Assembly: GCF_007997385.1 (NCBI RefSeq) | Contig: NZ_VOSC01000025.1 | Location: forward strand, 494,691-558,690 | Direction of reading: 5' to 3' | Source of the DNA: Seonamhaeicola algicola | Lineage (GTDB): Bacteria > Bacteroidota > Bacteroidia > Flavobacteriales > Flavobacteriaceae | DNA length: 64,000 nt | Position numbers and translations under genes: made by a program | Shown here: piece after piece, positions 18,697 through 53,957 of the stretch | How positions within the stretch are numbered: the first letter of the stretch is position 1 | How the letters are laid out: the number at the start of each line of letters is the position of its first letter | Notes under the pieces: model-generated | The model's database searches: none | What the model saw: the letters and a program-made list of their open reading frames with translations, nothing else | What the model was told of the DNA's origin: nothing

Positions 18697-18739
18697 TGAT
18701 TTTTGTCATAGTTTATCATGCACTTTGAAACTACTTTTA
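18697..18739 (+). promoter_or_regulatory. Crp/Fnr-type operator (18697-18710) with -7-like box (18732-18739)
   Basis: The palindrome ATGATTTTTGTCAT (TGA-N6-TCA core) lies in the gap between the CBM9-like gene and tonB. A -7-like box TACTTTTA starts 28.5 bp from the palindrome centre, about the spacing expected for class II activation at -41.5, and 21 bp before the tonB ATG. The box has A for the final consensus G, so this is the weakest of the five sites in the window. Confidence 0.5.
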
Positions 18740-18759
18740 TGGTATAAAATTTTAGAGTC

Positions 18760-19488
18760 ATGAAACCAAAAAAGAATCCAAATTTAGAAATAGGACGCAA
18801 TAGCACTTTGTATTTTGCTATAGGTCTTAATTTGATGCTGCTTCTTTCTTGGCGTATGTTAGAATATAAAACTTACGAGAAAGATGAAGTTTCAATTGAT
18901 ATTGTAGAAGTTGAGAGTGAATTTGAAGAAGAAATACCAATAGTAAATCAAATGGCACCACCGCCACCGCCACCGCCACCGGTTGCTCTACAAGAAAATG
19001 TGCAGATTGTTGAAGATACTGAAGAGGTTGAGGAAACCTTTATAGAAAGCTCTGAAACTGATCAAAACGACGCTATTGCTGAGGTGGTTGAAGTAAGCGA
19101 CATTGTGGTTGAAGAAATAGGTGAAGAAGTTGAAGTAGCGTTTGCTATTATTGAAGATGTACCCGTGTTTCCGGGTTGCGAAAAACTTAGTAAAGCAAAA
19201 ACAAAGGCTTGTTTTCAGCAAATGATACAGCAACATGTTGTAAAACACTTTACATACCCGCAAGCTGCTTTAGATATGGGTATACAAGGGCGCGTGTCAG
19301 TAATATTTATGATAGATACCAAAGGGCACGTAACAGGTGTACGTTCTAGAGGGCCAGATAAAATTTTAGAAAAAGAAGCAGAGCGTATTATTGGATTGCT
19401 ACCCAAAATGCAACCTGGTAAACAACGCGGTAAACCAGTTAAAGTTTCTTATGCTGTGCCAATATTCTTCAAGTATCAAGAAGGATAG
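18760..19488 (+). CDS. tonB: energy transducer TonB
   Basis: 242 aa. A short cytoplasmic N-terminus and one membrane anchor (LYFAIGLNLMLLLSW) are followed by a periplasmic spacer with eight consecutive prolines (PPPPPPPP, near residue 70) and a long acidic Glu/Val-rich stretch. The C-terminal TonB domain begins near residue 150: VPVFPGCEKL, then FTYPQAALDMGIQGRVSVIF and a final YAVPIFFKY. It transmits inner-membrane proton-motive force from ExbBD to outer-membrane receptors. The PVFPGCE and single-Cys pattern is typical of Bacteroidota TonB. A strong terminator follows at 19521. Its upstream Crp/Fnr-type site suggests oxygen or redox control (inference). Confidence 0.92.
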   Translation: MKPKKNPNLEIGRNSTLYFAIGLNLMLLLSWRMLEYKTYEKDEVSIDIVEVESEFEEEIPIVNQMAPPPPPPPPVALQENVQIVEDTEEVEETFIESSETDQNDAIAEVVEVSDIVVEEIGEEVEVAFAIIEDVPVFPGCEKLSKAKTKACFQQMIQQHVVKHFTYPQAALDMGIQGRVSVIFMIDTKGHVTGVRSRGPDKILEKEAERIIGLLPKMQPGKQRGKPVKVSYAVPIFFKYQEG

Positions 19489-19520
19489 GTCTGTAAAAAG
19501 TTCTTTATTTCAATGTGGGG

Positions 19521-19560
19521 AAAACCAAGAGTTAACAAATTAGCTCTTGGTTTTTTGTTT
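19521..19560 (+). terminator. intrinsic terminator after tonB
   Basis: A perfect 11-bp stem (AAAACCAAGAG, 19521-19531, with CTCTTGGTTTT, 19544-19554) and a 12-nt loop run into a T tract. It lies 32 bp after the tonB stop. Confidence 0.9.
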
Positions 19561-19717
19561 TATATAATATGTAAGCCATATATGGTGTTTTTTTAATTTA
19601 ACAATTCATCATATAAAAATTACAGTTGGGTAATTCACTTTTTTAAAACCTTCATGTGTGTTGCATATTTGTTTCACAATTAAAAAACAAACAGTTATTA
19701 TTTTAAATTTAAAACAC

Positions 19718-20341
19718 ATGAAAAAACTAATCATCATCACCGTATTATTAATTACAGGCTTTGTAAGTGCACAAAGTAACTTTGAAAAAGGAATGGAAAA
19801 GGCTTTCAGTTTATGGAATAGCGGTAAACCTGTTGAGGCTGCTAATATGTTTGAGCGTATTGCCAATGCAGAACAAGATAATTGGTTACCACCGTATTAC
19901 GCTGCTCAAATTAATATTGTTTATAGTTTTGGGTTGAAAGACAAAGAAAAGTTAACCGCTCAATTAAAAAAGGCACAAGATTTATTAAATGATGCCACAG
20001 CCATATCAAAAAATAATCCAGAAATTTTAGTAATGCAGGCAATGCTACACACCGCTTGGGTGGCATTTGATGGCGCAACATACGGCATGACACTTTCGCC
20101 TAAAGTGGTAGAAATTTATACTAAAGCTAAGGCTATTGCACCTAATAACCCAAGAGTTGTATATTGTTATGCAGAATGGAATATTGGTGGTGCTAAGTTT
20201 TTTGGACAAGACACCACACCGTTTTGCAAAGATTTAGAAAAAGCCTTAGAACTTTTTGCTAATTTTAAACCAGAAACACCTTTTCACCCTAATTGGGGGC
20301 AAGATCGTGCTGAAATGGCTTTAAAAGCTTGCAACAAATAA
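19718..20341 (+). CDS. secreted TPR-like hypothetical protein
   Basis: 207 aa from ATG at 19718, chosen because it gives a clean signal peptide (MKKLIIITVLLITGFVSAQ); the frame is open 20 codons further upstream, but that part is not signal-like. The mature protein is all-helical with helix-pair spacing like TPR repeats (FSLWNSGKPVEAANMFERIA, then DNWLPPYYAAQINIVYSFG). I do not recognise a named family. It is the first gene of a run reaching the LytTR regulator (36 bp to the histidine kinase gene), so it may be a periplasmic partner of that system (inference). Confidence 0.72.
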   Translation: MKKLIIITVLLITGFVSAQSNFEKGMEKAFSLWNSGKPVEAANMFERIANAEQDNWLPPYYAAQINIVYSFGLKDKEKLTAQLKKAQDLLNDATAISKNNPEILVMQAMLHTAWVAFDGATYGMTLSPKVVEIYTKAKAIAPNNPRVVYCYAEWNIGGAKFFGQDTTPFCKDLEKALELFANFKPETPFHPNWGQDRAEMALKACNK

Positions 20342-20377
20342 TTTATTAAAACAAAGTATAAATATAAAAGCTTTACA

Positions 20378-21721
20378 ATGAAACATCTTCTAAAAAACAT
20401 AATTACTTCATTTATAATAGGTATTGTTGTATTTATTGTTGGAAGTTTTTTATCAAACGGATTTAAATATAATTCTACTGAAGATTTTCTTGTAACCTTT
20501 GTAATTTATCAGCTTTATGCTTTTGTAATTGGTTTTTCTAACATGTATTTTTTTGATTATTTAGAAAAACTAACCTGGAGACCAACCGATAAAATTAAGC
20601 GCATAATTATAGGTATTATAGGTGCTACCGTACTTACACTTTTATGCCTTTTTGTACTAAACTTAATAATGGCCATAACGTTGCGTGGTGAATCGGTAAT
20701 GCATTTCATAGCAAACCAATCTTTTAGTCATTACAGTTTTGGTTTATGGATTACATTAACTATTGTAACTTTTTTTCACGTTGTTTATTTCTACAATAAA
20801 TATCAGCAAAACAAAATAAAGGAACAAAAAGTAATTGCAGGTACGGCTAGTGCAAAGTTTGATGCTTTAAAAAATCAATTAGATCCGCATTTTCTATTCA
20901 ACAGTTTAAATGTTTTAACCAGTTTAATTGATGAAAACCCAGATAAGGCACAAGATTTTACAACATCGCTTTCAAAAGTATATAGGTATGTTTTAGAGCA
21001 AAAAAGTAAAGAATTAGTATCTGTAGATGAAGAACTGCAATTTGCAAAAACGTACATGTCTTTAATAAAAATGCGTTTTGAAGACAGTATAGTATTTACA
21101 ATGCCTGCAAAAGCAACAAACCCCGAAAGTAAAGTAGTTCCATTATCATTACAATTACTTTTAGAAAATGCAGTAAAACACAACATGGTAACCCCAAGTA
21201 AACCTTTGCAGATTACCATTTTTGAAGATAATGGTTACCTAATAGTACAAAACAATTTACAACCAAAGCAAATAGTAAAAAAAAGCAGTGGTGTTGGTTT
21301 AAGTAACATAATGCAACGTTACAATTTGCTTACTACCCGCAAGGTAGATATTAACAAACAATCAACTAAGTTTTCGGTAGCAATACCAATGCTTACAAAA
21401 CAAATATCAATTATGAGAACAAAATCATCAAATCAAATAGACGATAGTTATTTACGCGCACGCAATCATGTTGAAGAGCTTAAAGGTTTTTATTACAGCT
21501 TAGTAGCTTACATTTTTGTAATACCTTTTTTAATTTTTGTGAATTATAGAACCTCGTGGCATTTCCAATGGTTTTGGTTTCCAATGTTTGGTTGGGCTAT
21601 AGGTTTGGTTATACAAGCATTTAGGGTTTTTGTACACAACGGTGCTTTTGGCCGAAACTGGGAGCAACGTAAAATACAAGAATACATGAAGCAAGAGGAA
21701 CAAAAAGATCGTTGGAACTAA
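20378..21721 (+). CDS. LytS-type sensor histidine kinase with C-terminal 2TM domain
   Basis: 447 aa. Four membrane segments occupy about residues 10-145. A cytoplasmic kinase core follows: the His_kinase motif LDPHFLFNSLNVLTSLI carries the phospho-accepting His, and LLLENAVKHN is the ATP-binding N box, with SSGVGLSNIMQRY as the G box. Uniquely, residues of about 360-447 are a complete 2TM domain (DDSYLRARNHVEELKGFY, two membrane helices, then NWEQRKIQEYMKQEE) like those encoded by the next two genes. It should phosphorylate the LytTR response regulator at 22449. The fusion suggests that 2TM proteins assemble with the kinase in the membrane. Confidence 0.9.
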   Translation: MKHLLKNIITSFIIGIVVFIVGSFLSNGFKYNSTEDFLVTFVIYQLYAFVIGFSNMYFFDYLEKLTWRPTDKIKRIIIGIIGATVLTLLCLFVLNLIMAITLRGESVMHFIANQSFSHYSFGLWITLTIVTFFHVVYFYNKYQQNKIKEQKVIAGTASAKFDALKNQLDPHFLFNSLNVLTSLIDENPDKAQDFTTSLSKVYRYVLEQKSKELVSVDEELQFAKTYMSLIKMRFEDSIVFTMPAKATNPESKVVPLSLQLLLENAVKHNMVTPSKPLQITIFEDNGYLIVQNNLQPKQIVKKSSGVGLSNIMQRYNLLTTRKVDINKQSTKFSVAIPMLTKQISIMRTKSSNQIDDSYLRARNHVEELKGFYYSLVAYIFVIPFLIFVNYRTSWHFQWFWFPMFGWAIGLVIQAFRVFVHNGAFGRNWEQRKIQEYMKQEEQKDRWN

Positions 21722-21732
21722 TTAAAAAAAAC

Positions 21733-22059
21733 ATGGAACAATTAAAAGATTTTAATACAGACTATAAAAAAGAAGACGCTTATTTACGTGCACAAAAACG
21801 TGTAAAAGATTTAAAAGGATTTTACGCTCACGCATTGTGGTATTTGGTAATTAACATAATACTTATTGTATTAATTGGTGCAAATTCAAACGGAAATATT
21901 TGGAACTTTGGCACATTTGCAACAGCATTTTTTTGGGGCATAGGTTTAGCATTTCATGCTTTAGGCGTGTTTGGTAAAAATATATTTTTTAGTAAAAACT
22001 GGGAAGAACGCAAAATACAAGAATACATGCGTAAAGAGGAAACTGAGAAATACGAATAG
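21733..22059 (+). CDS. 2TM domain-containing protein
   Basis: 108 aa from ATG at 21733. It consists of one 2TM unit: an amphipathic entry segment (YLRAQKRVKDLKGFYAHALWY), two membrane helices, and the exit motif NWEERKIQEYMRKEE. It matches the C-terminal domain of the preceding kinase, with which it shares the YLRA and RKIQEYM ends. It begins 11 bp after the kinase stop and ends 1 bp before the next 2TM gene. The function is unknown; it is likely a membrane partner or modulator of the kinase. Confidence 0.85.
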   Translation: MEQLKDFNTDYKKEDAYLRAQKRVKDLKGFYAHALWYLVINIILIVLIGANSNGNIWNFGTFATAFFWGIGLAFHALGVFGKNIFFSKNWEERKIQEYMRKEETEKYE

Positions 22060-22060
22060 T

Positions 22061-22402
22061 ATGAGCAAACCAACCAATAATAAAAGTAAACAAGCCTATT
22101 TTAAAGCCAAAGAAAAAGTAAACCATGTAAAAATATTTTACGTGCATTTGGTGGGCTATTTAATAGCTGTTGGGCTTATGGGTTACAATATTTACTATAT
22201 TCATATTTACACAAGTAAATACACTAACTTTTTTACATGGTTTAATAGTATATTTATTGTAGCGTGGACGGTTTTTATTGTTTTACACTGGCGTTGGGCC
22301 ATAAAAGGAAAAACCTTTTTTAGTAAAGGTTGGGAAGCAAAAAAAGCCAAAAAATATATAGAAAAGCAAAGCACAAAAGAAGAAACCACAATGTGGGAAT
22401 AG
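22061..22402 (+). CDS. 2TM domain-containing protein, divergent copy
   Basis: 113 aa from ATG at 22061; I rejected an upstream in-frame start inside the previous gene because it would not give a 2TM N-terminus. It has the same plan (YFKAKEKVNHVKIFYVHLVGY, two membrane helices, GWEAKKAKKYIEKQ), but the exit segment is more divergent than in the other two copies. It is the third consecutive 2TM unit in this operon and lies 46 bp before the LytTR regulator gene. The tandem arrangement suggests duplication of the domain now fused to the kinase. Confidence 0.84.
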   Translation: MSKPTNNKSKQAYFKAKEKVNHVKIFYVHLVGYLIAVGLMGYNIYYIHIYTSKYTNFFTWFNSIFIVAWTVFIVLHWRWAIKGKTFFSKGWEAKKAKKYIEKQSTKEETTMWE

Positions 22403-22448
22403 GCCAGCAACCATAATTCAAAATATTAAAAAAATTACTGTAGCTATT

Positions 22449-23204
22449 ATGAATGTTATTATTATTGAAGACGAAAAACCATCGGCACGCCGTTTACAAC
22501 GTATGTTAAATGAATTAGGTATTGAAGCTGAAACTATGCTGCACTCTGTAGAAGAGTCTATACAGTGGTTTCAAGAAAATACGCATCCAGATTTAATTTT
22601 TTTAGACATACAGTTAAGTGATGGTTTGTCATTTGAAATTTTTGAAACCATTAAAATAAAATCGGCCATAATTTTTACAACCGCCTATGACGAGTACGCA
22701 CTTCAAGCATTCAAATTAAATAGTATAGATTATTTACTTAAACCAATTGATACCGATGAATTAGAAAATGCTGTAACAAAATATCAAGAAAATGCGCCTA
22801 AAAAGCAAGCTGTAACTTTAGATTTTACCGATATTAAAAACCTCTTAGTAAATCCTTTAGATAGAGAATATAAAAAACGTTTTTCAGTAAAAGTGGGGCA
22901 GCACTTAAAACTTATAAATGTTGATGAAATTGAATGTATATATTCTGAAAACAAAGGCACTTATTTATTTACAACTGATGGCAGAAACTATTTGTTAGAT
23001 AAAACTTTAGATCAACTTGAAGACGATTTAGAACCACAAACCTTTTACCGTATTAACCGTAAGTTTTACGTTAATATAAATGCTATAAAAGATATGGTTA
23101 GTTATACAAACTCGCGTTTACAAATAAAATTAAAGGCATACAATGAGCAAGAAGTTATTGTTGCACGTGAGCGTGTAAAAGATTTTAAAGCTTGGTTAGA
23201 GTAG
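22449..23204 (+). CDS. LytTR-family response regulator
   Basis: 251 aa. The receiver domain covers residues 1-120: acidic pair IEDEKPSA, phospho-Asp in LIFLDIQLSDG, and Lys in YLLKPID. A linker leads to the LytTR DNA-binding domain (about 150-250): RFSVKVGQHLKLINVDEI, then YRINRKFYVNINAI and a final VARERVKDFKAWL. It is the likely target of the LytS-type kinase in the same operon and binds DNA as a response-regulator dimer. Target genes cannot be read from the window. It ends 15 bp from the convergent gene at 23220. Confidence 0.92.
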   Translation: MNVIIIEDEKPSARRLQRMLNELGIEAETMLHSVEESIQWFQENTHPDLIFLDIQLSDGLSFEIFETIKIKSAIIFTTAYDEYALQAFKLNSIDYLLKPIDTDELENAVTKYQENAPKKQAVTLDFTDIKNLLVNPLDREYKKRFSVKVGQHLKLINVDEIECIYSENKGTYLFTTDGRNYLLDKTLDQLEDDLEPQTFYRINRKFYVNINAIKDMVSYTNSRLQIKLKAYNEQEVIVARERVKDFKAWLE

Positions 23205-23219
23205 GTGTGTTATTAGTGT

Positions 23220-23642
23220 TTAATTATCAACTCTAGTAAAAATCATTGTATTGTTATCATTAAAATCAGTAGGTCTGTCTCCACCAAAACCCATTGAAAA
23301 CATCATTTTATTAGCGTCAATTTTTTTGGCAATACATAATAACCTTTTGGTTATGTTATCTTCAAAAATGGTAACCATAAAATCAACCTCTATTGGAGAT
23401 TTTGAATAGTCAACCTCATATTCCATTTTGCCTCTTTTACCATGAAATTCAAAGTCTTTTCCTCCTAAATCAAAATCTTTAACCTTCATATAAGCATACC
23501 CTTCAGCATCAAAAATAAAATACCCAACTTCATAATTTTCAACACCTTCCCATTTTCCTATAATACTAAAATCTGAAGTCTTGGTTGTGCTAAATGATGT
23601 TAACATTAACGCAGTTAACAGTAATAAAATGATTTTTTTCAT
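23220..23642 (-). CDS. small secreted hypothetical protein
   Basis: 140 aa with a Sec signal (MKKIILLLLTALMLTSFS). The mature part is beta-rich and starts FSIIGKWEGVENYEVGYFIF, a pattern seen in lipocalin-like 'IVGKW' domains of Bacteroidota, but the domain is short and I would not assign a ligand. Two Cys are absent from the mature N-terminus, so it is not a lipoprotein. It is convergent with the LytTR gene and follows the LETM1-related gene by 88 bp on the same strand. Confidence 0.65.
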   Translation of the reverse strand: MKKIILLLLTALMLTSFSTTKTSDFSIIGKWEGVENYEVGYFIFDAEGYAYMKVKDFDLGGKDFEFHGKRGKMEYEVDYSKSPIEVDFMVTIFEDNITKRLLCIAKKIDANKMMFSMGFGGDRPTDFNDNNTMIFTRVDN

Positions 23643-23730
23643 GGGTTTAAGTTGTTTTTTAAGAAAAGTATTTTTTGAAGATATGAAATATTAAAACCAG
23701 TATAATTAGGTTTTTTACAAATTATAAATG

Positions 23731-24903: not shown

Positions 24904-24964
24904 GGAGTGTTTTTTAGCTAATGTAAATGTAGTATTAAAAGCGTATAAACTAAAAATTTTTTCG

Positions 24965-24984
24965 TTAACAAAATTTTAACAAAA
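24965..24984 (+). repeat. direct repeat TTAACAAAA x2 upstream of DUF4331 gene
   Basis: TTAACAAAA occurs at 24965-24973 and 24976-24984, an 11 bp (one helical turn) periodicity, 56 bp upstream of the DUF4331 start. No TAnnTTTG box lies between it and the gene, so it may belong to a promoter read by another sigma factor or to an activator site. Confidence 0.4.
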
Positions 24985-25039
24985 CCACTAAAACTCTTTT
25001 TTCGTAGGTATGGGCATAAATGAATTTTTAATTAACTAA

Positions 25040-25702: not shown

Positions 25703-25725
25703 TTAACACTATTAAAATTTAAATT

Positions 25726-26277: not shown

Positions 26278-26286
26278 AAATATAAT

Positions 26287-26315
26287 CCCAAGGCGTATTT
26301 AGCCTTGGGGTTTTT
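26287..26315 (+). terminator. intrinsic terminator after the DUF4331 pair
   Basis: A perfect 8-bp stem (CCCAAGGC, 26287-26294, with GCCTTGGG, 26302-26309) and a 7-nt loop are followed by GTTTTT. It separates the DUF4331 pair from the TPR-TonB receptor genes, so the latter need read-through or their own promoter. Confidence 0.9.
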
Positions 26316-26353
26316 AATTGTCCCAAAACTACTTCAAACCAAATAAAAATAAT

Positions 26354-33493: not shown

Positions 33494-33537
33494 ATGATAT
33501 ATGTCATATTTTAATAGCGCTATTGCCTGTAGTTTTG
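33494..33537 (+). promoter_or_regulatory. Crp/Fnr-type operator (33494-33507) with -7 box (33530-33537) for hemN
   Basis: The palindrome ATGATATATGTCAT has its centre exactly 29.5 bp before the first base of TAGTTTTG, a perfect TAnnTTTG box, itself 17 bp upstream of the hemN ATG. No TTG-type -33 box is present, as expected for an activator-dependent promoter with the regulator near -41.5. Confidence 0.7.
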
Positions 33538-33554: not shown

Positions 33555-34919
33555 ATGTTAAAAGCGTTAATAAATAAATACAATATTGCGGGGCCGCGTT
33601 ATACAAGTTATCCAACAGTGCCCTATTGGAATGCTAATACGTTTTCATTAAAAAAATGGCAAGCTACAATGGCTAAGTCTTTAAATGAAAGTAATTTGAG
33701 TGAAGGTGTAAGCTTATATATTCATTTGCCTTTTTGCGAAAGCTTATGTACGTTTTGTGGTTGTAATAAGCGTATTACAAAACAACACAGCGTAGAACAT
33801 CCATATATAAACGCTGTATTAAAAGAATGGCGTTTGTATTTAAAGTTGTTTAATGAAAAACCAGTAATTAAAGAGTTGCATTTAGGTGGTGGAACACCCA
33901 CATTTTTTAGTGCAGAAAATTTAGAATTGCTTATAAAAGGTATTTTAAATGATGCCGTTTTAGCAGATAATTACGAGTTTAGTTTTGAAGGACACCCAAA
34001 CAATACAACCCCAAAACATTTACAAACCTTATTTAATTTAGGGTTTAGGCGTGTTAGCTTTGGTGTGCAAGATTATAATGAAACAGTACAAAAAGCTATA
34101 CATAGAATACAACCTTTTGAAAATGTTAAACGTGTTACTGAAGCTGCAAGAAACATTGGTTACACATCAGTAGGGCATGATATTATTTTTGGCCTGCCAT
34201 TTCAAACATTACAGCATGTAAAAGAAACCATTTTAAAAACCAAAGAACTATTACCAGATAGGTTGGCCTTTTACAGTTATGCACATGTGCCTTGGGTAAA
34301 AGGAAACGGACAACGAGGGTTTAGTGATGAAAATTTACCCTCGGCAGCATTAAAACGAAGCCAATATGAACTAGGAAAAGAATTGTTAGCACAAGTTGGC
34401 TACCATGAAATAGGTATGGACCACTTTGCGCTTACTACCGATAGCTTATACACATCAATGCAAAGCGGTAATTTACATCGTAACTTTATGGGGTATACAG
34501 CCTCTAAAACACAGGCTATGATTGGTTTGGGTGTATCATCAATAAGTGATAGTTGGTATGGTTTTTCGCAAAATGTAAAAGGTATTGAAACCTACTATCA
34601 ACTTTTAGAAAAAGATGTAATTCCTGTATACCGAGGGCATATTTTAAACGAAGAAGACCTTGTTATAAGAAAACATATTCTTAACTTAATGTGCAGGTTT
34701 AAAACCTCTTGGAGTAAAAAAAACTTGTATTTTAATGAACTACCTGAAACGTTAATACGATTGAAGGAAATGGAAACAGACGGATTAATCAATATAAATT
34801 CAAAAAGTATTGAGGTGACTAAAAAAGGACAGCCATTTGTAAGAAACGTGTGTATGGCGTTTGATTTGTTGTTGCAACGTAAACAACCCAACACACAGTT
34901 GTTTTCAATGACTGTTTAG
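33555..34919 (+). CDS. hemN: oxygen-independent coproporphyrinogen III dehydrogenase
   Basis: 454 aa. The radical-SAM cluster motif is CESLCTFCGC (Cys61, 65 and 68, plus Cys70 typical of HemN), preceded by YIHLPF. Then come GGGTPTFFSAENL, RRVSFGVQDYN and GHDIIFGLPFQT. The HemN C-terminal domain is present (GLGVSSISDSWYGF), so this is the true enzyme rather than a HemW-like protein. It oxidatively decarboxylates two propionates of coproporphyrinogen III without oxygen, supplying heme when oxygen is low. It fits the upstream Crp/Fnr-type promoter and the cbb3 genes of the window. A universal stress protein gene follows 23 bp later. Confidence 0.95.
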   Translation: MLKALINKYNIAGPRYTSYPTVPYWNANTFSLKKWQATMAKSLNESNLSEGVSLYIHLPFCESLCTFCGCNKRITKQHSVEHPYINAVLKEWRLYLKLFNEKPVIKELHLGGGTPTFFSAENLELLIKGILNDAVLADNYEFSFEGHPNNTTPKHLQTLFNLGFRRVSFGVQDYNETVQKAIHRIQPFENVKRVTEAARNIGYTSVGHDIIFGLPFQTLQHVKETILKTKELLPDRLAFYSYAHVPWVKGNGQRGFSDENLPSAALKRSQYELGKELLAQVGYHEIGMDHFALTTDSLYTSMQSGNLHRNFMGYTASKTQAMIGLGVSSISDSWYGFSQNVKGIETYYQLLEKDVIPVYRGHILNEEDLVIRKHILNLMCRFKTSWSKKNLYFNELPETLIRLKEMETDGLININSKSIEVTKKGQPFVRNVCMAFDLLLQRKQPNTQLFSMTV

Positions 34920-43192: not shown

Positions 43193-43193
43193 G

Positions 43194-45302: not shown

Positions 45303-45333
45303 TAGTTAACATTAGTTAGTTTATGTAATAATG

Positions 45334-46227: not shown

Positions 46228-46412
46228 GATATATTGTTGTTATTTTGGTTGTCTAAAGGCATATTACTAACAGTTTTTATGTAGTCTTTTTTAGCAGTTA
46301 CAACCCACCAAAACAGCGCTACAAAAAAGATGAAAAATATAAGTAAAGAGATGATTGGGTATATTTCTATACCTGTAATGCTCTCCATGTGGTTTTTTAC
46401 AAATTTTAACAT
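46224..46412 (-). CDS. ccoQ: CcoQ/FixQ-like small cbb3 oxidase subunit
   Basis: 62 aa with one membrane helix (YPIISLLIFFIFFVALFWWV) and a charged C-terminus, as in CcoQ/FixQ. The start may be M1 or M9 (MESITGIEIYP). It sits 6 bp after ccoNO and overlaps ccoP by 4 nt, exactly the operon place of ccoQ. CcoQ stabilises the assembled cbb3 complex. The sequence is too short for a stand-alone call; context carries most of the weight. Confidence 0.85.
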   Translation of the reverse strand: MLKFVKNHMESITGIEIYPIISLLIFFIFFVALFWWVVTAKKDYIKTVSNMPLDNQNNNNIS

Positions 46413-46418
46413 GATATA

Positions 46419-48617
46419 TTATTTTTGAGCTGTTTCAACATTAATATCTGTACCTAAGCGTTGTAAGTAGGCAATTAAAGCAACAATTTCTCTATTACGC
46501 ATTTCAACAAAAGCTTCGCCGTTTTCAGCAGCATACTTTTTGTTTGCTTCGTAATTTTTAGCAAAATCAGGATCAGCATATAGGTTTTCTTCAATTTGCT
46601 TGCCTTGTTCTAGCATGCTTTGTTGTGCATTGGCAATATCTTCATCTGTGTAAGGTACACCTAAAGACACCATGGTTTGCATTTTTGCTTCGGTTTGCGA
46701 TTTATCAAGCGTACTTGATGACCCCGAAATTAACCAAGGGTAACGTGGCATAATAGAACCAGATGAGGTGCTTTGCGGATCATACATGTGGTTAAAGTGC
46801 CAGTTGTCAGAGTATTTTCCGCCTATACGATGTAAATCTGGTCCGGTGCGTTTGCTTCCCCATAAAAACGGATGGTCATACACAAATTCTCCTGCTTTAC
46901 TGTATTCGCCATAGCGTTCAACTTCACTTCTAAACGGACGAATCATTTGTGAGTGGCAACCCACACAGCCTTCACGTATATAGATATCTCTTCCCTCTAA
47001 TTCTAAAGGAGTATATGGTTTTACACTTGCAATAGTTGGTATGTTAGATTTTACCATAATAGTTGGCACAATTTGAATAATACCACCAATTAAAATAGCA
47101 ACTGTTGCTAAAATTGTTAATTGTATTGGTCTGCGTTCTAACCACGTATGGAAACCTTCGCCAGCGGTACGTTTTTTGGTAACGCGTTCAAGCGCAGGAG
47201 CCTCGGCTAACTCATCTTCAACTTTACTTCCTTTTTTAATTGTAACAGCAATATTGTAAACCAAAATTAGTAAGCCAATAACATACATACTGCCACCAAT
47301 GGCACGCATCCAGTACATTGGTATAATTTCGGTAACTGTTTCTAAAAAGTTACCATAAACTAAGGTGCCATCAGGGTTAAATTGTTTCCACATACTAGCT
47401 TGGGTAAAGCCAGCAACATACATAGGTAATGCGTACATAATAATACCTAAAGTACCTAGCCAAAAATGTAAGTTTGCTAAAGGTAAAGAGTGTAGTTTTG
47501 TTTTAAATAAGCGTGGTATTAAATAGTAAATTATACCAAAAGCCATAAAGCCGTTCCAGGCTAAAGCACCAACGTGTACATGGGCAATAATCCAGTCTGT
47601 AAAGTGGGCAATAGCGTTTACGTTTTTAAGTGATAATGTAGGGCCTTCAAACGTTGCCATACCATAGCCAGTAATAGCTACTACCATAAACTTTAAAACA
47701 GGATCTGTTCTAACTTTATCCCAAGCGCCACGTAAGGTTAATAAACCATTTATCATACCACCCCAAGATGGCATTAAAAGCATTACAGAAAATGTTACGC
47801 CTAAATTTTGTGCCCATTCTGGTAAAGCGGTATATAATAAGTGATGTGGTCCTGCCCAAATGTAAATGAATATTAACGACCAAAAGTGTACAATAGATAG
47901 CCTATATGAGTAAACAGGTCTGTTTGCGGCCTTAGGTACAAAGTAATACATTAAGCCTAAAAATGGTGTAGTTAAAAAGAAAGCCACAGCATTATGCCCG
48001 TACCACCATTGTACTAAGGCATCTTGAACACCAGCATACACAGAGTAGCTTTTCATACTTGAAAATGCAACAGGAAGCTCTAAACTATTAAAAATATGTA
48101 AAACAGCAACCGTAACAAATGTGGCAATGTAAAACCAAATAGCTACGTATAAATGGCGTTGTCTACGTTTTAAAATTGTCCAAATCATGTTAACACCAAA
48201 AACTACCCAAATAAGTGCAATGGCAATATCTATTGGCCACTCTAACTCGGCATATTCTTTTGATGTGCTGTAACCTAAAGGCAATGATATGGCAGCAGCT
48301 ACTATAATAAGTTGCCAACCCCAAAAGTTAATATTGCTTAACAAATCACTAGCCATACGGGTTTTAAGCAAGCGTTGTAATGAGTAGTAAATACCCGCAA
48401 ACATGGCGTTACCCACAAACGCAAAAATAACAGCATTGGTGTGTAGTGGCCTTAAGCGCCCAAAACTAAGCCATGCAATACCATCGGTTAGGTTTGGAAA
48501 CAAAAACATAAATGCCAGCAGTAAACCAACTAGCATACCTACAACCCCAAAAACTATTGTGGCATAAATAAACTTTGTAACGATTTTGTTATCGTAATGA
48601 AATTGTTGCATTTCCAT
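46419..48617 (-). CDS. ccoNO: fused cbb3-type cytochrome c oxidase subunits I and II (CcoN-CcoO)
   Basis: 732 aa. The CcoN part (about 1-480) has twelve membrane segments with the expected His ligands: RPLHTNAVIFAF (low-spin heme), WWYGHNAVAFFLT (CuB His-Tyr region), GPHHLLYTALPEW and IAHVHVGALAWNG. After a short linker (EDELAEAPALERVTKK) comes CcoO (about 510-732) with one anchor, LEGRDIYIREGCVGCHSQMI (heme c) and PRYPWL (axial Met region). Fusion of N and O is a Bacteroidota trait. This is the catalytic, high-affinity oxygen-reducing core. It starts 9 bp after ccoS. Confidence 0.96.
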   Translation of the reverse strand: MEMQQFHYDNKIVTKFIYATIVFGVVGMLVGLLLAFMFLFPNLTDGIAWLSFGRLRPLHTNAVIFAFVGNAMFAGIYYSLQRLLKTRMASDLLSNINFWGWQLIIVAAAISLPLGYSTSKEYAELEWPIDIAIALIWVVFGVNMIWTILKRRQRHLYVAIWFYIATFVTVAVLHIFNSLELPVAFSSMKSYSVYAGVQDALVQWWYGHNAVAFFLTTPFLGLMYYFVPKAANRPVYSYRLSIVHFWSLIFIYIWAGPHHLLYTALPEWAQNLGVTFSVMLLMPSWGGMINGLLTLRGAWDKVRTDPVLKFMVVAITGYGMATFEGPTLSLKNVNAIAHFTDWIIAHVHVGALAWNGFMAFGIIYYLIPRLFKTKLHSLPLANLHFWLGTLGIIMYALPMYVAGFTQASMWKQFNPDGTLVYGNFLETVTEIIPMYWMRAIGGSMYVIGLLILVYNIAVTIKKGSKVEDELAEAPALERVTKKRTAGEGFHTWLERRPIQLTILATVAILIGGIIQIVPTIMVKSNIPTIASVKPYTPLELEGRDIYIREGCVGCHSQMIRPFRSEVERYGEYSKAGEFVYDHPFLWGSKRTGPDLHRIGGKYSDNWHFNHMYDPQSTSSGSIMPRYPWLISGSSSTLDKSQTEAKMQTMVSLGVPYTDEDIANAQQSMLEQGKQIEENLYADPDFAKNYEANKKYAAENGEAFVEMRNREIVALIAYLQRLGTDINVETAQK

Positions 48618-48626
48618 ATTTAATTC

Positions 48627-48815
48627 TTAATCTTTTTTTTTGGTTAGTACAGTTTTTTCAATTTTATCTTTAATAAGTTCATCTTCAAAAAGCATACGAA
48701 CAGAAGGTGTGTAGCTATCATCATATTGTCCGCTTTTAACGGCTAAAATGAAAGCTATAAAAAAACCAACAGCTACAATTACGCTTATAGCTAATAAAAC
48801 ATATATAACACTCAT
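48627..48815 (-). CDS. ccoS: cbb3-type oxidase assembly protein CcoS
   Basis: 62 aa. A single membrane helix (VIYVLLAISVIVAVGFFIAF) is followed by WAVKSGQ-like sequence, here LAVKSGQYDDSYTPSVRMLF, with the CcoS hallmark SGQYDD and a charged tail. CcoS is needed for insertion of heme and copper into the oxidase. It is the first gene of ccoS-NO-Q-P-(G), with a Crp/Fnr-type operator and perfect -7 box upstream, and the CcoI gene lies further upstream beyond an intergenic repeat. Confidence 0.92.
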   Translation of the reverse strand: MSVIYVLLAISVIVAVGFFIAFILAVKSGQYDDSYTPSVRMLFEDELIKDKIEKTVLTKKKD

Positions 48816-48835
48816 ACCTATTTGAAGTTATGGGT

Positions 48836-48879
48836 CAAAAGTACCTTCAACCTTTATTTTATAAAATGACATTTGTCAT
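48836..48879 (-). promoter_or_regulatory. Crp/Fnr-type operator (48866-48879) with -7 box (48836-48843) for ccoS-NOQPG
   Basis: The near-perfect palindrome ATGACATTTGTCAT has its centre 29.5 bp from the first base of the minus-strand box TACTTTTG (TAnnTTTG exact). The ccoS ATG lies 20 bp beyond the box. No -33 TTG is visible. This is the best site in the window, as expected for an oxygen-regulated oxidase promoter. Confidence 0.78.
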
Positions 48880-48901
48880 GTTTCTTACCGTATCTTTTTT
48901 T

Positions 48902-49089
48902 GGGCGTTCCCCAATTGGGTCGGGCTTTCCATTATATCTTTTTTGTGTGTTATTACTTATCATGTTTTTGTGTGCTGTGGCAATCTTTTAAATCAATGAT
49001 ATTACTTCGTTGTACCTCCTCGTAATGCCGGCTTATTTGTAAAAACAAAAAAGGATGCCATTACAATCCCTAACGCACTTGTTTGCTAA
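48902..49089 (+). repeat. flavobacterial-type intergenic repeat, long copy
   Basis: The left module is GGGCGTTCCCC...GGGTCGGGCTTTCC (48902-48930) with the palindrome CCCAATTGGG. The right module is ACAATCCCTAACGCACTT then TTTGCTAA (about 49062-49089). The spacer is about 100 bases longer than in the copy at 43696 and carries complementary ATCTTTTTTG and CAAAAAAGGAT arms, so the whole may fold. It separates ccoI from the ccoS promoter. I recall related elements scattered in flavobacterial genomes, but cannot cite a description. Confidence 0.72.
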
Positions 49090-49102
49090 AACAGTTTTAT
49101 TC

Positions 49103-51478
49103 TTACTTCAGTTTTCTACCAATAATATTTGTGCAAATAGTGGTAAAAACCACAATGCTAATAGAGCTTAAAGGCATTAAAATGGCGGCAACTACTGGTG
49201 CTAATTGCCCTGTAACCGCAAAGTATAACCCAATAAAATTGTAAATAAATGATAACACAAAACTCCATTTAATAATACTAAAGGCTAATTTTGCAACCTT
49301 TAAATAATTTGCTAACTGATTAAATTTTGAAGCATCTAAAATAGCATCGCACGCTGGCGAGAAAATATTCACATTTTCTGAAATAGCTATGCCAACATTG
49401 CTTTGGGCTAATGCACCAGCATCATTTAAACCATCACCAATCATTAATACGTTGGCACCTTCACTTTGGTGGTATTTTATGTATTCTAGTTTGTCTTCGG
49501 GTTTTTGGTTAAATAGTAACTTGGTTTTTGAAGGCAATAACTTTTTTAGATTGTTTTTTTCGCCTTCATTATCACCCGATAAAATAGCTAAATCATATGT
49601 TTTTTTAAGTCGGTTAAAAAGTTTAGACATTCCTTTTCTGTACGCATTATAAAAGGTGTATTTGCCTTTATAATTATTGTTAGTGCTTATGTGTACAGCG
49701 GTGTTTAAACTATTTTTAGAGGGTTGTAACCCAACAAATGTAGCAGCACCAACTTTTATAGATTGTGCTTTGTAATGCGCCTCAATACCTTTGCCGGTGT
49801 GTTCTTTAAAATCATCTAGAGTTATAATATTTTCATTGTCTAAAATATCATATAAAGATCGGCTTAATGGGTGGTTAGAACCACGTAAAGTGCTTTTAAG
49901 TAAGCTTTCTTCGTCTTTACTAAGTGTAGCGCCTTCATAAGTAATAGCAGTGTTTTTGTTTGAGGTTATTGTACCTGTTTTATCAAAAATAATGGTGTTA
50001 ATTTTAGCAAGTTGTTCAATAACACTAGCATTTTTTAGGTAGAATTTCTTTTTACCTAAAATGCGTAGTACATTGCCAAATGTAAACGGAGCCGATAATG
50101 CAATTGCGCAAGGACACGCAATTATTAAAACGGCAGTAAATACATTTATAGCTTTACTAGCATCAACAAAAAGCCAATAACTAGTAGCTACCATGGCAAT
50201 AAGTAAAATGGCAATGGTAAAGTTTTTACTAATACTATTGGTTAAGCTTGTAAATGCAGATGCTTTATCTTTTTTAAACACATCATTACTCCATAATTGG
50301 GTTAAATAACTTTGTTCAACAGATTTTAAAACATCAACTTCAATAGTGCCGTTTAGTTGTTTGCCGCCCGCAAATAATTTATCGCCCGATGCTTTGTTTA
50401 CAGCTTTAGATTCGCCAGTTACAAAACTATAATCAATACGTGCGTTTCCTTTAATTAAAATGCAATCTACAGGTATTAGTTCTTCATTTCTTATAAGTAA
50501 TCGGTCGCCTTTTTTTATATCATAAACCTGAATAGATGTTTCATTACCTTCAGCAGTAATTTTTGTAATTCCTATAGGGAAATACGATTTATAATCACGT
50601 TCAAATGATAAAAATGTATAGGTTTTTTCCTGAAAAAACTTGCCAACTAGCAAAAAGAAAATGAGTCCGGTTAAGCTATCAAAAAAGCCTGAGCCAATAT
50701 CTAAAATAATTTCGGTAGTACTTCTAATAAATAACACTGCGGCACCTAGTGCAATGGGCACATCTATATTTAAAATTTTTGAGCGTAAGCCTTTGTATGC
50801 CGATATAAAATAATCTTGTGCAGAATAAAAAACAACGGGTAAACTATAGCTAAACATTAGCCAACGGAAAAGATGTTTGTACTGTTCTAACCAGTATTCG
50901 CCAACTTCAAAATACTCTGGAAACGATAAAAACATTACGTTGCCAAAAGCAAAACCAGCAACACCTAATTTGTAAATTAAAGAACGGTTGGTTTTCTTTT
51001 TTCCAACACTGTAATCTTCTAAACTTATGTAAGGTTCATAGCCAATGCTACTTAGTAAAATTACAAGTTCTTTAAGGGTGGTTTTTTTAGGGTTAAATGA
51101 AATGCGTACTGTTTTTTTACCAAAATTTACTGTAGATGCGCTTATGGCTTTGTTAAGTTTATTTAGGTTTTCTAAAATCCAAATACAGGAGCTACAATGT
51201 ATGTGCGGTATGTATAGGTTTACAATATGCACATTATCACTATTAAACTCTAAAAGCTTTTCAGTAATTTTTGTATTTTCTAAAAAGTTGTATTTGCCTG
51301 CAACTTCTTTTGGTGTAGCGCCAGGTGCCGTTTGTAAATCGTAATAACACGTTAAGTTGTTTACCGTAAAAATTTCATAAACGGTTTTACAACCATTGCA
51401 ACAAAAGGGTTTGTTATCAAAGGTTATGTTTGCCTTGGTAGCATCTAATCCACAGTGGAAACACGTTTTATGTTCCAT
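49103..51478 (-). CDS. ccoI: copper-type P1B ATPase for cbb3 oxidase assembly (CcoI)
   Basis: 791 aa. An N-terminal Cys-rich site (CFHCG and CCNGC, residues 6-30) and a heavy-metal-associated domain with CSSC (Cys95, Cys98) are followed by the P1B core: TGES (354-357), membrane CPC (Cys455, Cys457), phosphorylation motif DKTGT (Asp499) and hinge GDGLND near 690. This is the CcoI/FixI type with the long Cys-rich N-terminus, which exports copper to the periplasm for the cbb3 binuclear site. It starts the gene order ccoI-S-NO-Q-P-G but is probably a separate transcript, having its own Crp/Fnr-type promoter. Confidence 0.94.
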   Translation of the reverse strand: MEHKTCFHCGLDATKANITFDNKPFCCNGCKTVYEIFTVNNLTCYYDLQTAPGATPKEVAGKYNFLENTKITEKLLEFNSDNVHIVNLYIPHIHCSSCIWILENLNKLNKAISASTVNFGKKTVRISFNPKKTTLKELVILLSSIGYEPYISLEDYSVGKKKTNRSLIYKLGVAGFAFGNVMFLSFPEYFEVGEYWLEQYKHLFRWLMFSYSLPVVFYSAQDYFISAYKGLRSKILNIDVPIALGAAVLFIRSTTEIILDIGSGFFDSLTGLIFFLLVGKFFQEKTYTFLSFERDYKSYFPIGITKITAEGNETSIQVYDIKKGDRLLIRNEELIPVDCILIKGNARIDYSFVTGESKAVNKASGDKLFAGGKQLNGTIEVDVLKSVEQSYLTQLWSNDVFKKDKASAFTSLTNSISKNFTIAILLIAMVATSYWLFVDASKAINVFTAVLIIACPCAIALSAPFTFGNVLRILGKKKFYLKNASVIEQLAKINTIIFDKTGTITSNKNTAITYEGATLSKDEESLLKSTLRGSNHPLSRSLYDILDNENIITLDDFKEHTGKGIEAHYKAQSIKVGAATFVGLQPSKNSLNTAVHISTNNNYKGKYTFYNAYRKGMSKLFNRLKKTYDLAILSGDNEGEKNNLKKLLPSKTKLLFNQKPEDKLEYIKYHQSEGANVLMIGDGLNDAGALAQSNVGIAISENVNIFSPACDAILDASKFNQLANYLKVAKLAFSIIKWSFVLSFIYNFIGLYFAVTGQLAPVVAAILMPLSSISIVVFTTICTNIIGRKLK

Positions 51479-51502
51479 AATATTTGCTCATTTTACCTAG
51501 TG

Positions 51503-51546
51503 CAAAATTGGGCAGATAAGCTAAATTAAAATATGATTTTAGTCAT
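51503..51546 (-). promoter_or_regulatory. Crp/Fnr-type operator (51533-51546) with -7-like box (51503-51510) for ccoI
   Basis: The palindrome ATGATTTTAGTCAT has its centre 29.5 bp from the first base of the minus-strand box CAATTTTG (TAnnTTTG with one mismatch), 24 bp upstream of the ccoI ATG. The same operator lies 8 bp before a plus-strand TACTTTTA box of the PAS kinase gene, so a bound regulator could activate ccoI while interfering with the kinase promoter. Confidence 0.62.
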
Positions 51547-51554
51547 GAATTACA

Positions 51555-51562
51555 TACTTTTA
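51555..51562 (+). promoter_or_regulatory. candidate -7-like box for the PAS kinase gene
   Basis: TACTTTTA (last base A instead of G) lies 35 bp upstream of the kinase ATG and begins 8 bp after the Crp/Fnr-type palindrome at 51533-51546, a position where binding would overlap the -33 region. Confidence 0.35.
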
Positions 51563-51597
51563 CAACGCATTACTAAGTAACTAACTGATTTTTTTTA

Positions 51598-52842
51598 ATG
51601 ATTTTTCAAAACGATAAAGATGTTTTTAATGTGCTTTTTGAAGCTGTTTCAGAAGGCGTAATTGTAGTTGATAAAACACAGCATATTGTGGCTGCAAACA
51701 AATCGGCCGAAAGTATGTTTGGTTATAACCACAACGAATTAATTAATAAACATTTGGATACGTTAATACCCAAGCAATACAAGGCAGGTCATGGTGCACA
51801 CGTTGAAGGTTTTATGAAACGCCAAAAAAAGCGTCAAATGGGGCAGGGGCGCGATTTGTATGGTGCTTGTAAAAACGGTAGTACATTTCCGGTTGAAGCT
51901 GGTTTAAACCCGCTACACATTAATGGCGAAGATTACATAATGGCGCTGGTTATTGATATTTCTGTTAGAAAAAAACAAGAACAAGAATTACAAGCGTTAA
52001 ATAATGAATTAGAGCAAAAAGTAGCCGATAGAACAGCACAGTTAAGTGCCACAGTTACAGAGCTTAAAATTGCCAATCAAAAGCGTGATGTTGAAATACA
52101 AAAACGTATTGAGGCTCAAAATAAAATAAGTGATGCGCTTAAAAAAGAAAAAGAACTTAATGAATTGAAAACTAAGTTTTTATCGTTGGTTTCGCATGAG
52201 TTTAAAACACCGTTAAGTGGTATTTTAACTTCGGCTATGTTGTTAAGTAAATATAAATTAACCGAACAGCAAGAAAGGCGAGATAAACACATAAAAACTA
52301 TTACAGATAAAGTACATTATTTAAATAATATTTTAAATGATTTTTTATCAATAGAAAAACTAGAAACTGGCAAAGTATCATACAAATACGCAAACTTTAT
52401 GCTTACTAAAGTGGTTGATGAGGTTGTTTACAATGCCAATATGCTTTTAAAAGAAGGGCAAACAATTAAATACCCCGAAAATATTGATGGTTTGGCACTT
52501 CATCAAGATGAAAAAATAGTAGAATTAGCACTAAGTAATTTGGTGCATAATGCTATAAAATATTCTCCTGAGCATTCAGAAATTATAATTGATATTAGTC
52601 AAGATAATAGTACAACAACTTTTAAGGTTACAGACAAGGGTATTGGCATACCAGAAAAAGACCAAAAACAAATTTTTAATCGTTATTTTAGGTCTGAAAA
52701 CGCATTGTTAATTCAAGGCACCGGCATAGGCTTAAATATTGTAAAAAGCCATTTAAACAATTTAGGAGGCACAATACATTTTAAAAGCGCCGAAAACAAA
52801 GGAAGCACATTTACTATAAAACTACCAAATAAAGCTAATTAA
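51598..52842 (+). CDS. PAS-domain sensor histidine kinase (FixL-like arrangement)
   Basis: 414 aa, soluble. A single PAS domain (about 8-122) has the sub-type QYKAGHGAHVEGF and MGQGRDLYGACKNGSTFPVE. His65 and Arg85 align by eye with the heme-ligand His and distal Arg of FixL, 20 residues apart as in FixL, but many non-heme PAS domains share this pattern. A coiled coil (about 123-190) leads to HisKA (FLSLVSHEFKTPLSG, His200) and HATPase_c (NLVHNAIKYS, DKGIGIPEKD, GTGIGLNIV). Its stop overlaps the REC-CRP gene (TAATG), making that protein the obvious partner. Together with the flanking cbb3 genes this suggests oxygen or redox sensing (inference). Confidence 0.92.
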   Translation: MIFQNDKDVFNVLFEAVSEGVIVVDKTQHIVAANKSAESMFGYNHNELINKHLDTLIPKQYKAGHGAHVEGFMKRQKKRQMGQGRDLYGACKNGSTFPVEAGLNPLHINGEDYIMALVIDISVRKKQEQELQALNNELEQKVADRTAQLSATVTELKIANQKRDVEIQKRIEAQNKISDALKKEKELNELKTKFLSLVSHEFKTPLSGILTSAMLLSKYKLTEQQERRDKHIKTITDKVHYLNNILNDFLSIEKLETGKVSYKYANFMLTKVVDEVVYNANMLLKEGQTIKYPENIDGLALHQDEKIVELALSNLVHNAIKYSPEHSEIIIDISQDNSTTTFKVTDKGIGIPEKDQKQIFNRYFRSENALLIQGTGIGLNIVKSHLNNLGGTIHFKSAENKGSTFTIKLPNKAN

Positions 52843-53891
52843 TGAAACACATACTTTTAATAGAAGACGATGTTATTTTAAGAGAAAATACAGCCGAATT
52901 ATTAGAGCTATCAAACTATAACGTAACCACAGCACCAAACGGTAAAATAGGCTTAAATACTGCGTTAAATATACAGCCAGATATTATTGTATGTGATATT
53001 ATGATGCCCGAATTAGATGGTTATGGTGTATTACAAGGGTTGGCAAAAACAGAAGAAACTAAACACATTCCGTTTATATTTTTATCGGCTAAAACAGAGC
53101 GAAAAGATGTGCGAAAGGGTATGGATTTAGGTGCCGATGACTACATAACAAAACCCTTTGATGAAGATGAGTTAATTAGTGCCATTGAAAGTAGATTGGC
53201 TAAAGCTGCCATTTTAAAAGATAACAGAGAAAATGATTTTAATGACAATGATGATGACCAAAACATCAGAAATTTAAACGATTTAAAAAACTTTTTTGAT
53301 GATAATGGTAAAACATTCACCTTTAAGCAAGGTGAAATTATTTATGAAGAAGGGCAGCATTCAAACTACATTTATTTAATAGAAAAAGGTTTGGTAAAAT
53401 GCCATAAGTTAGATGACCAAGGTAAAGATTTAACCACCGCATTACACAAAGAAGATGATTTGTTTGGTTACACATCATTTACTGATAATACTACTTACAA
53501 AGAAACTGCAGCAGCCATACAAGAGTCGGTTTTACTAGGTATTTCAAAACATGAATTTATGGAAATTATAAGTAGCAACCATAATGTTACTTTAGATTTA
53601 ATTCAACTTTTAAATGACGATTTGGTAAACGTAAAAGATCAATTACTAGAAATGGCATACAGTTCGGTAAAAAAGAGAACTGCTACTACCATCTTAAAGT
53701 TTGCAGATAAATTAGGTAGTAAACCAACCGATTTTATTAGAATTTCAAGAAATGATTTGGCAAGTGTAGCAGGTGTTGCAACCGAGAGTTTAATTAGAAC
53801 GTTATCACGTTTTAAAGATGCCGGAATTATTGAAATTGAAGGCCGTAATATTAAAGTATTAAACCTTCAAGAGTTAAAAAATATAGAATAG
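52842..53891 (+). CDS. response regulator with CRP/FNR output domain (REC-cNMP-HTH)
   Basis: 349 aa. The receiver domain (1-120) has IEDDV, phospho-Asp52 in CDIMMPE and Lys104 in TKPF. An acidic linker (about 127-150) is followed by a CRP-type sensor fold (about 155-270; KQGEIIYEEGQHSNYIYLIE) and an HTH_CRP domain (about 285-345). The recognition helix reads ATESLIRTLSRF, retaining the E-x3-R pair (Glu315, Arg319) that reads TGA half-sites in CRP and FNR. A phospho-switch thus appears to drive a CRP-type DNA binder directly, uniting FixJ-like and FixK-like functions in one chain. It overlaps the kinase gene by one base. Confidence 0.93.
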   Translation: MKHILLIEDDVILRENTAELLELSNYNVTTAPNGKIGLNTALNIQPDIIVCDIMMPELDGYGVLQGLAKTEETKHIPFIFLSAKTERKDVRKGMDLGADDYITKPFDEDELISAIESRLAKAAILKDNRENDFNDNDDDQNIRNLNDLKNFFDDNGKTFTFKQGEIIYEEGQHSNYIYLIEKGLVKCHKLDDQGKDLTTALHKEDDLFGYTSFTDNTTYKETAAAIQESVLLGISKHEFMEIISSNHNVTLDLIQLLNDDLVNVKDQLLEMAYSSVKKRTATTILKFADKLGSKPTDFIRISRNDLASVAGVATESLIRTLSRFKDAGIIEIEGRNIKVLNLQELKNIE

Positions 53892-53913
53892 CAGCCTTTA
53901 GTTAGCTCAAATT

Positions 53914-53957
53914 CTGATATTGGTCATATTTCAATTTTAGCCTTAGCGCTACCTTTG
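53914..53957 (+). promoter_or_regulatory. Crp/Fnr-type operator (53914-53927) with -7 box (53950-53957) for usp-fnr
   Basis: CTGATATTGGTCAT keeps the TGA-N6-TCA core and the GTCAT half. Its centre is 29.5 bp from the first base of TACCTTTG, a perfect TAnnTTTG box, 27 bp upstream of the usp ATG. The arrangement is the same as at hemN and ccoS. Confidence 0.68.

Follow-up and report, generated by a model that had tools for sequence, protein, structure and literature searches.

The 64-kb stretch of Seonamhaeicola algicola DNA analysed here (the window; part of one contig of a 3.7-Mb genome) contains five promoters that share a CRP/FNR-type palindrome at a fixed distance from the −7 box. Comparison of these promoters across genomes indicates that they belong to a genuine class II regulon of the CRP/FNR type, one that is conserved and whose targets are low-oxygen genes. 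It is likely that the palindrome is a class II operator centred at −41.5 on sigma-A promoters of this regulon and that it is probably read by two regulators encoded in the window, P0001, a fusion of a receiver and a CRP-type activator, and P0002, an FNR-like protein. Apparently novel are the receiver-CRP fusion with its FixL-like kinase and an operator that it seemingly has in common with the FNR-like protein.

A palindrome at constant distance from the −7 box in five promoters

The letters of the window were re-read, and the TGA of the five TGA-N6-TCA palindromes starts at positions 18697, 33495, 48867, 51534 and 53915. One palindrome each lies upstream of tonB, hemN, ccoS-ccoNO, ccoI and usp-fnr. 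All five had been reported in a first-pass annotation of this DNA, four of them with a coordinate one too low that pointed to the flanking base. The distance from the operator centre to the first base of the −7-like box is 29.5 bp at all five promoters, including that of tonB, for which 28.5 bp had been given through an off-by-one count. In the order tonB, hemN, ccoS, ccoI and usp the boxes read TACTTTTA, TAGTTTTG, TACTTTTG, CAATTTTG and TACCTTTG. Three boxes, those of hemN, ccoS and usp, match TAnnTTTG exactly; that of tonB has A as its last base and that of ccoI one mismatch. The features under discussion are, in window coordinates:

18696..18709 (+), operator ATGATTTTTGTCAT of tonB
18732..18739 (+), −7-like box TACTTTTA of tonB
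18760..19488 (+), tonB-family gene (TonB_C)
33494..33507 (+), operator ATGATATATGTCAT of hemN
33530..33537 (+), −7 box TAGTTTTG of hemN
33555..34919 (+), hemN, oxygen-independent coproporphyrinogen III oxidase (TIGR00538, above cut-off)
46419..48617 (−), fused ccoN-ccoO, cbb3 oxidase subunits I/II
48627..48815 (−), small open reading frame (ORF) of 62 aa, 20 nt after the box, which we take to be ccoS from its position and from recall
48836..48843 (−), −7 box TACTTTTG of ccoS
48866..48879 (−), operator ATGACAAATGTCAT of ccoS-ccoNO
49103..51478 (−), heavy-metal P-type ATPase gene, labelled ccoI by context
51503..51510 (−), box CAATTTTG of ccoI
51533..51546 (−), operator ATGACTAAAATCAT of the ccoI-type gene, in the gap common to the ccoI and kinase genes
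51598..52842 (+), PAS histidine kinase P0003
52842..53891 (+), P0001, fusion of receiver (D52), cNMP-binding fold and HTH_Crp_2, candidate activator 1
53914..53927 (+), operator CTGATATTGGTCAT of usp-fnr
53950..53957 (+), −7 box TACCTTTG of usp-fnr
53985..54788 (+), universal stress protein (usp) gene
54821..55498 (+), P0002, FNR-like regulator, candidate activator 2

The window as a whole holds 23 TGA-N6-TCA palindromes, where 10.62 (sd 2.97) are expected and none of 100 shuffles reached 23. Two further elements were seen near these genes, a Flavo-1 RNA (RF01705, 48 bits) at 48914-49091 on the minus strand, between ccoI and the ccoS operator, and a further TGATATTAGTCA at 52590-52601, within the kinase gene.

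The spacing is enriched across the genome and the class

Enrichment of the spaced motif across the genome had been set beforehand as one test of the first-pass annotation. When the gap between palindrome and box was left free from 8 to 38 in the window's own genome, 14 of the 55 TGA-N6-TCA/TAnnTTTG pairs fell at gap 23, which equals 29.5 bp, and the runner-up among the gaps had 5 pairs; for one of 31 gaps this is an excess with a binomial p of 1.6e-9 against uniform gaps. With the spacing fixed and the core narrowed to TGAY-N4-RTCA, 11 exact sites were obtained and none in the reversed control. A search allowing two mismatches in the same genome returned 245 matches against 318 in the reversed control, so noise exceeded signal and this search is not decisive.

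The same preference was evident in 80 loci around P0001 homologs, the best 80 of 564 confirmed matches, which are rich in Flavobacteriaceae and mutually related. Of the intergenic TGAY-N4-RTCA cores followed by an exact TAnnTTTG, 115 had gap 23 and 11 had gap 24, and no other gap between 0 and 44 occurred more than 3 times (sites within ORFs of more than 150 aa, 4 in all, were counted separately). At fixed spacing, 247 genomes of the class, which we take as Bacteroidia, contained 847 sites against 19 in the reversed control, and 199 of them had at least one site. The association of palindrome and box is thus confirmed, and it is stronger than had been claimed.

Among 113 distinct promoters of the 80 loci, a T follows the proximal TCA in 99%, although the search did not demand it; at the mirror position upstream, 62% have A and 35% have C. 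The flanks are A-rich on one side and T-rich on the other, and the consensus palindrome is roughly aa-n-ATGAY-N4-RTCAT-n-tt.

CRP/FNR activators of class II bind at −41.5, and the window sites carry the TGA-N6-TCA dyad of a CRP/FNR operator. A position near −41.5 had been anticipated in the first-pass annotation; the distance to the box is confirmed in this genome, and the anchoring of the box comes from a related genus. In the mapped starts of Flavobacterium psychrophilum the TAnnTTTG box occupies −12 to −5 (PMC9723704, main-text parts), and a first base at −12 plus 29.5 bp would put the operator centre at −41.5.

The operator is kept at orthologous promoters of low-oxygen genes

Comparison of the same promoters in relatives showed that both operator and spacing are kept at orthologs. 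The tonB operator is present in the window and at 5 of 5 close orthologs of relatives (6/6 in all), at 29.5 bp throughout and with a mismatch in one box, and it is absent from all six paralogous tonB promoters examined. The 28.5-bp reading of this promoter was rejected, as at 29.5 bp 5 of the 6 close orthologs have TAnnTTTA and one (L285) has TAACTTCA.

Within the genus we compared seven genomes, the window's own included, using 60 stretches of genomes G002-G006 over sites at gap 23 or 24 (the counts from G006 are lower bounds). The operator recurs in all seven at phosphate acetyltransferase (pta), hemN and ccoS-ccoN; in six at pyruvate formate-lyase (pflB), a PepSY-like protein (named by eye) and a thioredoxin-like protein; in five at a metallo-beta-lactamase/rhodanese protein and a cytochrome c; and in four at moeA. 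At gap 24, on the other side of the cytochrome c palindrome, a divergent Rrf2 regulator gene is found in 4 of the 7. Palindromes with a −7 box on both sides were seen in L062 (G001:C1:649654-649728), L226, L236 and L261, at gap 23 to the cytochrome c and gap 24 to the Rrf2 gene.

Across the 80 loci, where boxes with 5 of 6 matches at gap 23 or 24 were accepted, 78 genes following the fusion were testable; 77 of them have the operator and 76 are Usp-like. The operator was also found at ccoI in 11 of 12 cases and at ccoNO in 10 of 10 testable ones, ccoNO itself being found in 16 of the 80 loci. The fusion gene carries no spaced site of its own (0/79).

Further targets in the window's own genome are nrfH, followed by an nrfA-like gene, a B12-dependent ribonucleotide reductase (partial ORF) and another usp. 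At one more site (C29:611662) there is no ORF close by; a cobalamin riboswitch comes next, followed by a gene resembling a TonB-dependent B12 receptor, which is a partial ORF below the family cut-off. In the corresponding locus (L058:2163-4001, equal to G000:C29 from about 611662) the operator and −7 box precede the riboswitch at 2360-2578 and the receptor-like gene from 2649 onwards, and L227 and L244 likewise have a cobalamin riboswitch after a site of this kind. A B12-receptor-like gene behind operator and riboswitch, together with a B12-dependent ribonucleotide reductase in the regulon, would give a physiological reason for part of the regulon.

Taken together, the targets (cbb3, ccoI, hemN, pflB, pta, nrfH, the B12-dependent ribonucleotide reductase, usp and tonB) look like a low-oxygen regulon. 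Oxygen limitation strongly induces cbb3 oxidase and heme-biosynthesis enzymes in the flavobacterium with mapped starts, according to parts of the same paper, in whose main text the term Fnr is absent (PMC9723704). The proposal of a CRP/FNR-type class II regulon over cbb3, hemN, usp-fnr and tonB is accordingly borne out by a spacing that holds genome-wide and class-wide and is kept at orthologous promoters. That the pattern arises by chance, or from the composition of AT-rich intergenic DNA, we regard as scarcely credible: TGA-N6-TCA alone is indeed common in such DNA, with 10.6 expected in the window, but the spacing peak, the 847 sites against 19 in the control, the conservation at orthologs and the contrast to the tonB paralogs all speak against it.

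Sites at other genes were also seen. In L074 (G001:C6) a spaced site lies ahead of a sulfide quinone reductase of the selenoprotein subtype, and G067 and G243 have several near-identical sites with the box region TATAAATAGTTTTG, which suggests one type of promoter in front of a gene family of several copies.

A receiver-CRP fusion, its kinase and an FNR-like protein

P0001 is one chain of 349 aa composed of a receiver, a cNMP-binding fold and HTH_Crp_2; its closest named match, 91% identical, is from Winogradskyella marincola. The receiver residues typical of response regulators, an acidic pair (E8, D9), the phospho-acceptor aspartate (D52), a Thr/Ser (S82) and a lysine (K104), are present in 81 of 81 sequences (the 80 loci and P0001), and D52 and K104 were confirmed in a filter-free repeat. 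Neither this fusion nor the heme-PAS matches of the adjoining kinase had been recognised in the first-pass annotation. A full-length fusion was found in 116 of the 247 class genomes, and in a phylum sample of 198 genomes (E≤1e-50) it was found in 32, all of the same class.

The kinase gene is directly upstream of the fusion in 78 of the 80 loci. Compared with PDB structures at E≤1e-5, the PAS domain of P0003 had 14 matches, of which 13 are DosP, EcDOS or FixL and one is a multi-sensor kinase. In heme PAS domains the proximal ligand is a histidine and the distal residue an arginine, R220 in FixL; H65 of P0003 aligns with the heme histidine of the matched structures and R85 with R220. Of the 79 kinases from the Flavobacteriaceae loci, 77 have H65 and 65 have R85; H65 also recurs in 21 of 22 class kinases, which were recovered with a motif filter. 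By homology, the P0003 PAS domain appears to be of the heme-binding type with a proximal histidine.

P0002 combines a cNMP fold with HTH_Crp, as FNR regulators do, and its CxxC and C106 align with cysteines of FNR structures. Among 30 FNR-like loci of the class, collected with no filter, CxxC is found in 29, C53 in 29 and C106 in 30. A recognition helix E-x-x-I-R is common to P0001 and P0002, and its E, I and R were present, again with no filter, in all 81 fusions (the 80 loci and P0001) and in every protein of the two class sets, 30 fusions and 30 FNR-like proteins. Each class set of 30 includes one locus that is the window's own protein. The earlier class survey of the fusion with a motif filter had recovered 24 of 30 fusions and 22 kinases; E[TS]xIR had been the filter for the fusions of the 80 loci, and CxxC with ExxxR-like letters that for the class FNR-like loci (29/30 loci passed). 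The filter-free repeat of these counts recovered 30/30, 80/80 and 30/30 loci.

The window's own genome encodes five HTH_Crp_2 proteins above the cut-off. A third CRP/FNR protein of interest (G000:C28:87903-88484, L279) has N-terminal cysteines and the helix EEQVIR, which fits the E-x-x-I-R pattern, and its gene sits between moeA-like and nrtA-like genes, named by eye. It may be considered a further candidate activator.

Motif number rises with each regulator

To get clues on which regulator reads the operator, we labelled the 247 class genomes by the presence of the fusion (116) and of a close FNR-like protein (103). The fusion label denotes a full-length match, the worst at 2.2e-71 and the next genome at 1.6e-45, and the FNR label a best E of up to 4.2e-38. 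The mean number of sites per genome was 7.65 with both regulators (n=40), 3.51 with the fusion only (76), 3.35 with the FNR-like protein only (63) and 0.93 with neither (68), while the reversed-control means of these groups ranged from 0.04 to 0.11; 36 of the 68 genomes with neither had zero sites. When labels were permuted within families, over 140 genomes in 23 families for the fusion and 117 genomes in 20 families for FNR, the observed effect was never reached in 20000 trials for either label. The expected sign was seen in 18 of 23 families for the fusion and in 16 of 20 for FNR, and with family fixed effects on log(1+sites) the coefficients were 0.65 (se 0.10) and 0.63 (se 0.11), respectively. 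A tblastn count of standalone FNR genes across the 80 loci was unusable, as the fusion itself matches.

A motif number that rises with each regulator fits two activators on one operator better than one. The first-pass annotation had assigned all five promoters to a single activator, encoded at 52842 or 54821; this is doubtful, as the two proteins have the same recognition-helix residues and the motif number rises independently with each.

Use of the operator solely by P0002 or its relatives, with the receiver-CRP fusion acting at another site and linked merely by neighbourhood, is unlikely. Genomes with only the FNR-like protein do retain the spaced motif, at the mean given above, and the hemN operator occurs in four same-family genomes that lack the fusion. 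On the other hand, fusion-only genomes have more sites than those with neither regulator, within families too, the fusion has the same E-x-x-I-R helix, and the operator stands ahead of the gene right after the fusion in nearly every locus. Alternatively, P0001 could be the sole user, P0002 answering another signal, and the operator does flank the kinase-fusion locus on the usp side in nearly all of the 80 loci; moreover, 74 class genomes contain both hemN and the fusion, and the two are no more than 20 kb apart in 30 of these and no more than 5 kb apart in 16. This we consider distinctly improbable in view of the motif retained in the 63 FNR-like genomes without a fusion, such as G181 with 7 sites and G202 with 5.

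Proposed mechanism

We favor the interpretation in which the palindrome serves as a class II operator for CRP/FNR-family activators on Bacteroidota sigma-A promoters. An activator bound at −41.5 would stand in for the −33 element beside the TAnnTTTG box and would turn on the low-oxygen regulon, and the two regulators encoded beside the cbb3 genes would probably read the same operator. P0003 is expected to sense oxygen via heme, in the manner of FixL, and to phosphorylate P0001 at D52, so that the rhizobial FixL-FixJ-FixK chain would be compressed into two proteins. P0002, with its conserved cysteines, probably holds an oxygen-labile Fe-S cluster. In the window's own genome the P0002 gene comes after usp, with the operator ahead of both, in what may be one operon, an arrangement that would amount to feed-forward. 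The full scheme, a two-protein FixL/(FixJ+FixK) system and an FNR-like Fe-S protein with ligands of its own (CxxC, C53, C106) that meet at a common −41.5 operator, with additive inputs and a reach to B12 uptake and tonB as well as respiration, we judge to stand at about an even chance.

The palindrome might instead be a repressor site that masks the promoter under oxygen. A TACTTTTA at 51555-51562, at 15.5 bp from the ccoI operator, faces the kinase gene, and a protein bound there could block transcription; binding to the ccoI operator could in this way repress the kinase-fusion unit. Repressor sites need no fixed spacing, and the sharp spacing of 29.5 bp with a minority at 30.5 is what contact activation at −41.5 would leave. 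TTG occurs before the box in at most 10% of the 113 operator promoters at any offset from −23 to −11, which also speaks against repression, with a control set that is uninformative (see below). We regard repression as very unlikely.

Several findings weigh against activation of a common regulon by two proteins. A TTG peak at −33 was likewise not found in 38 operator-less promoters; control promoters too are without a −33 TTG, and hence nothing follows on a lost −33 element. A spaced site at the kinase gene was found in only 23 of 78 loci, and the hemN operator is not class-wide: 8 of 30 class loci have it (the window's own included, one with a weak box), as does 1 of 20 hemN genes in the 80 loci. 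Sites are fewer with the fusion in 4 of 23 families and with FNR in 3 of 20, and 16 of the 68 genomes with neither label hold at least 2 sites, among which G060 has a fusion split over two frames. The FNR label is only approximate, as its E-value cut lies near cross-matches of the fusion. In the 22 class kinases R85 is mixed. The cysteines of Escherichia coli FNR are C20, C23, C29 and C122, and the class FNR-like loci have S, N, G or R, and no cysteine, at the position of C29.

Comparison with known systems

The route from low oxygen to transcription in Bacteroidota appears little described in the open literature covered here. We found no description of the operator, the regulon or the fusion in Bacteroidota in the accessible parts of the open-access literature, and the parts consulted of PMC11213822 and PMC1183210 do not mention them. 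CRP/FNR homologs in metagenome-assembled genomes of Flavobacteriales and Saprospiraceae have been loosely tied to MalR and carbon (PMC8510549, in part). The present analysis provides a concrete operator, a fixed geometry on the unusual TAnnTTTG promoters of Bacteroidota, a list of targets and two regulators as candidates, and makes the question directly testable. If the proposal is true, the FixLJ-FixK cascade would here have a shorter counterpart, in which a likely heme-sensing kinase acts on a receiver fused to a CRP activator, and the common operator would illustrate how one promoter can sum a phospho-signal with an Fe-S signal. Flavobacterial sigma-A promoters have the same box at the same −12 to −5 position, and the main-text parts of the report describe no such operator (PMC9723704).

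The FNR/ANR regulons of Proteobacteria resemble the one described here in the TGA-N6-TCA core, the centre at −41.5, the low-oxygen targets and the alignment of P0002 with FNR at CxxC and C106. Classic FNR/ANR targets are cbb3, hemN, pfl and nrf. The differences lie in the TAnnTTTG box of Bacteroidota, in another set of cysteines, in a second, phosphorylatable regulator that appears to use the same operator, and in the half-site, ATGAY here. The FNR/ANR half-site is TTGAT, and the recognition helix of E. coli FNR has S at the position of I here.

With the rhizobial FixL-FixJ-FixK chain the system shares a PAS kinase that matches the heme PAS of FixL, a response regulator, a CRP-family activator and cbb3/hemN targets. 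The DNA-binding part of FixJ is of the LuxR type, whereas that of P0001 is CRP. Receiver and CRP domains are in one protein rather than in a separate FixJ that activates fixK, and the step in which FixJ makes FixK would thus be absent. Alphaproteobacteria also offer a case in which FixL-type sensing is connected in another way to a CRP-family activator: as far as the available parts of the source go, hFixL-FxkR-FixK of Rhizobium etli and R. leguminosarum exists besides FixLJ/FixK (PMC4999443). That system is alike in its rewired path from sensor to activator, and it differs in having a separate FixK gene and another operator, that of FxkR.

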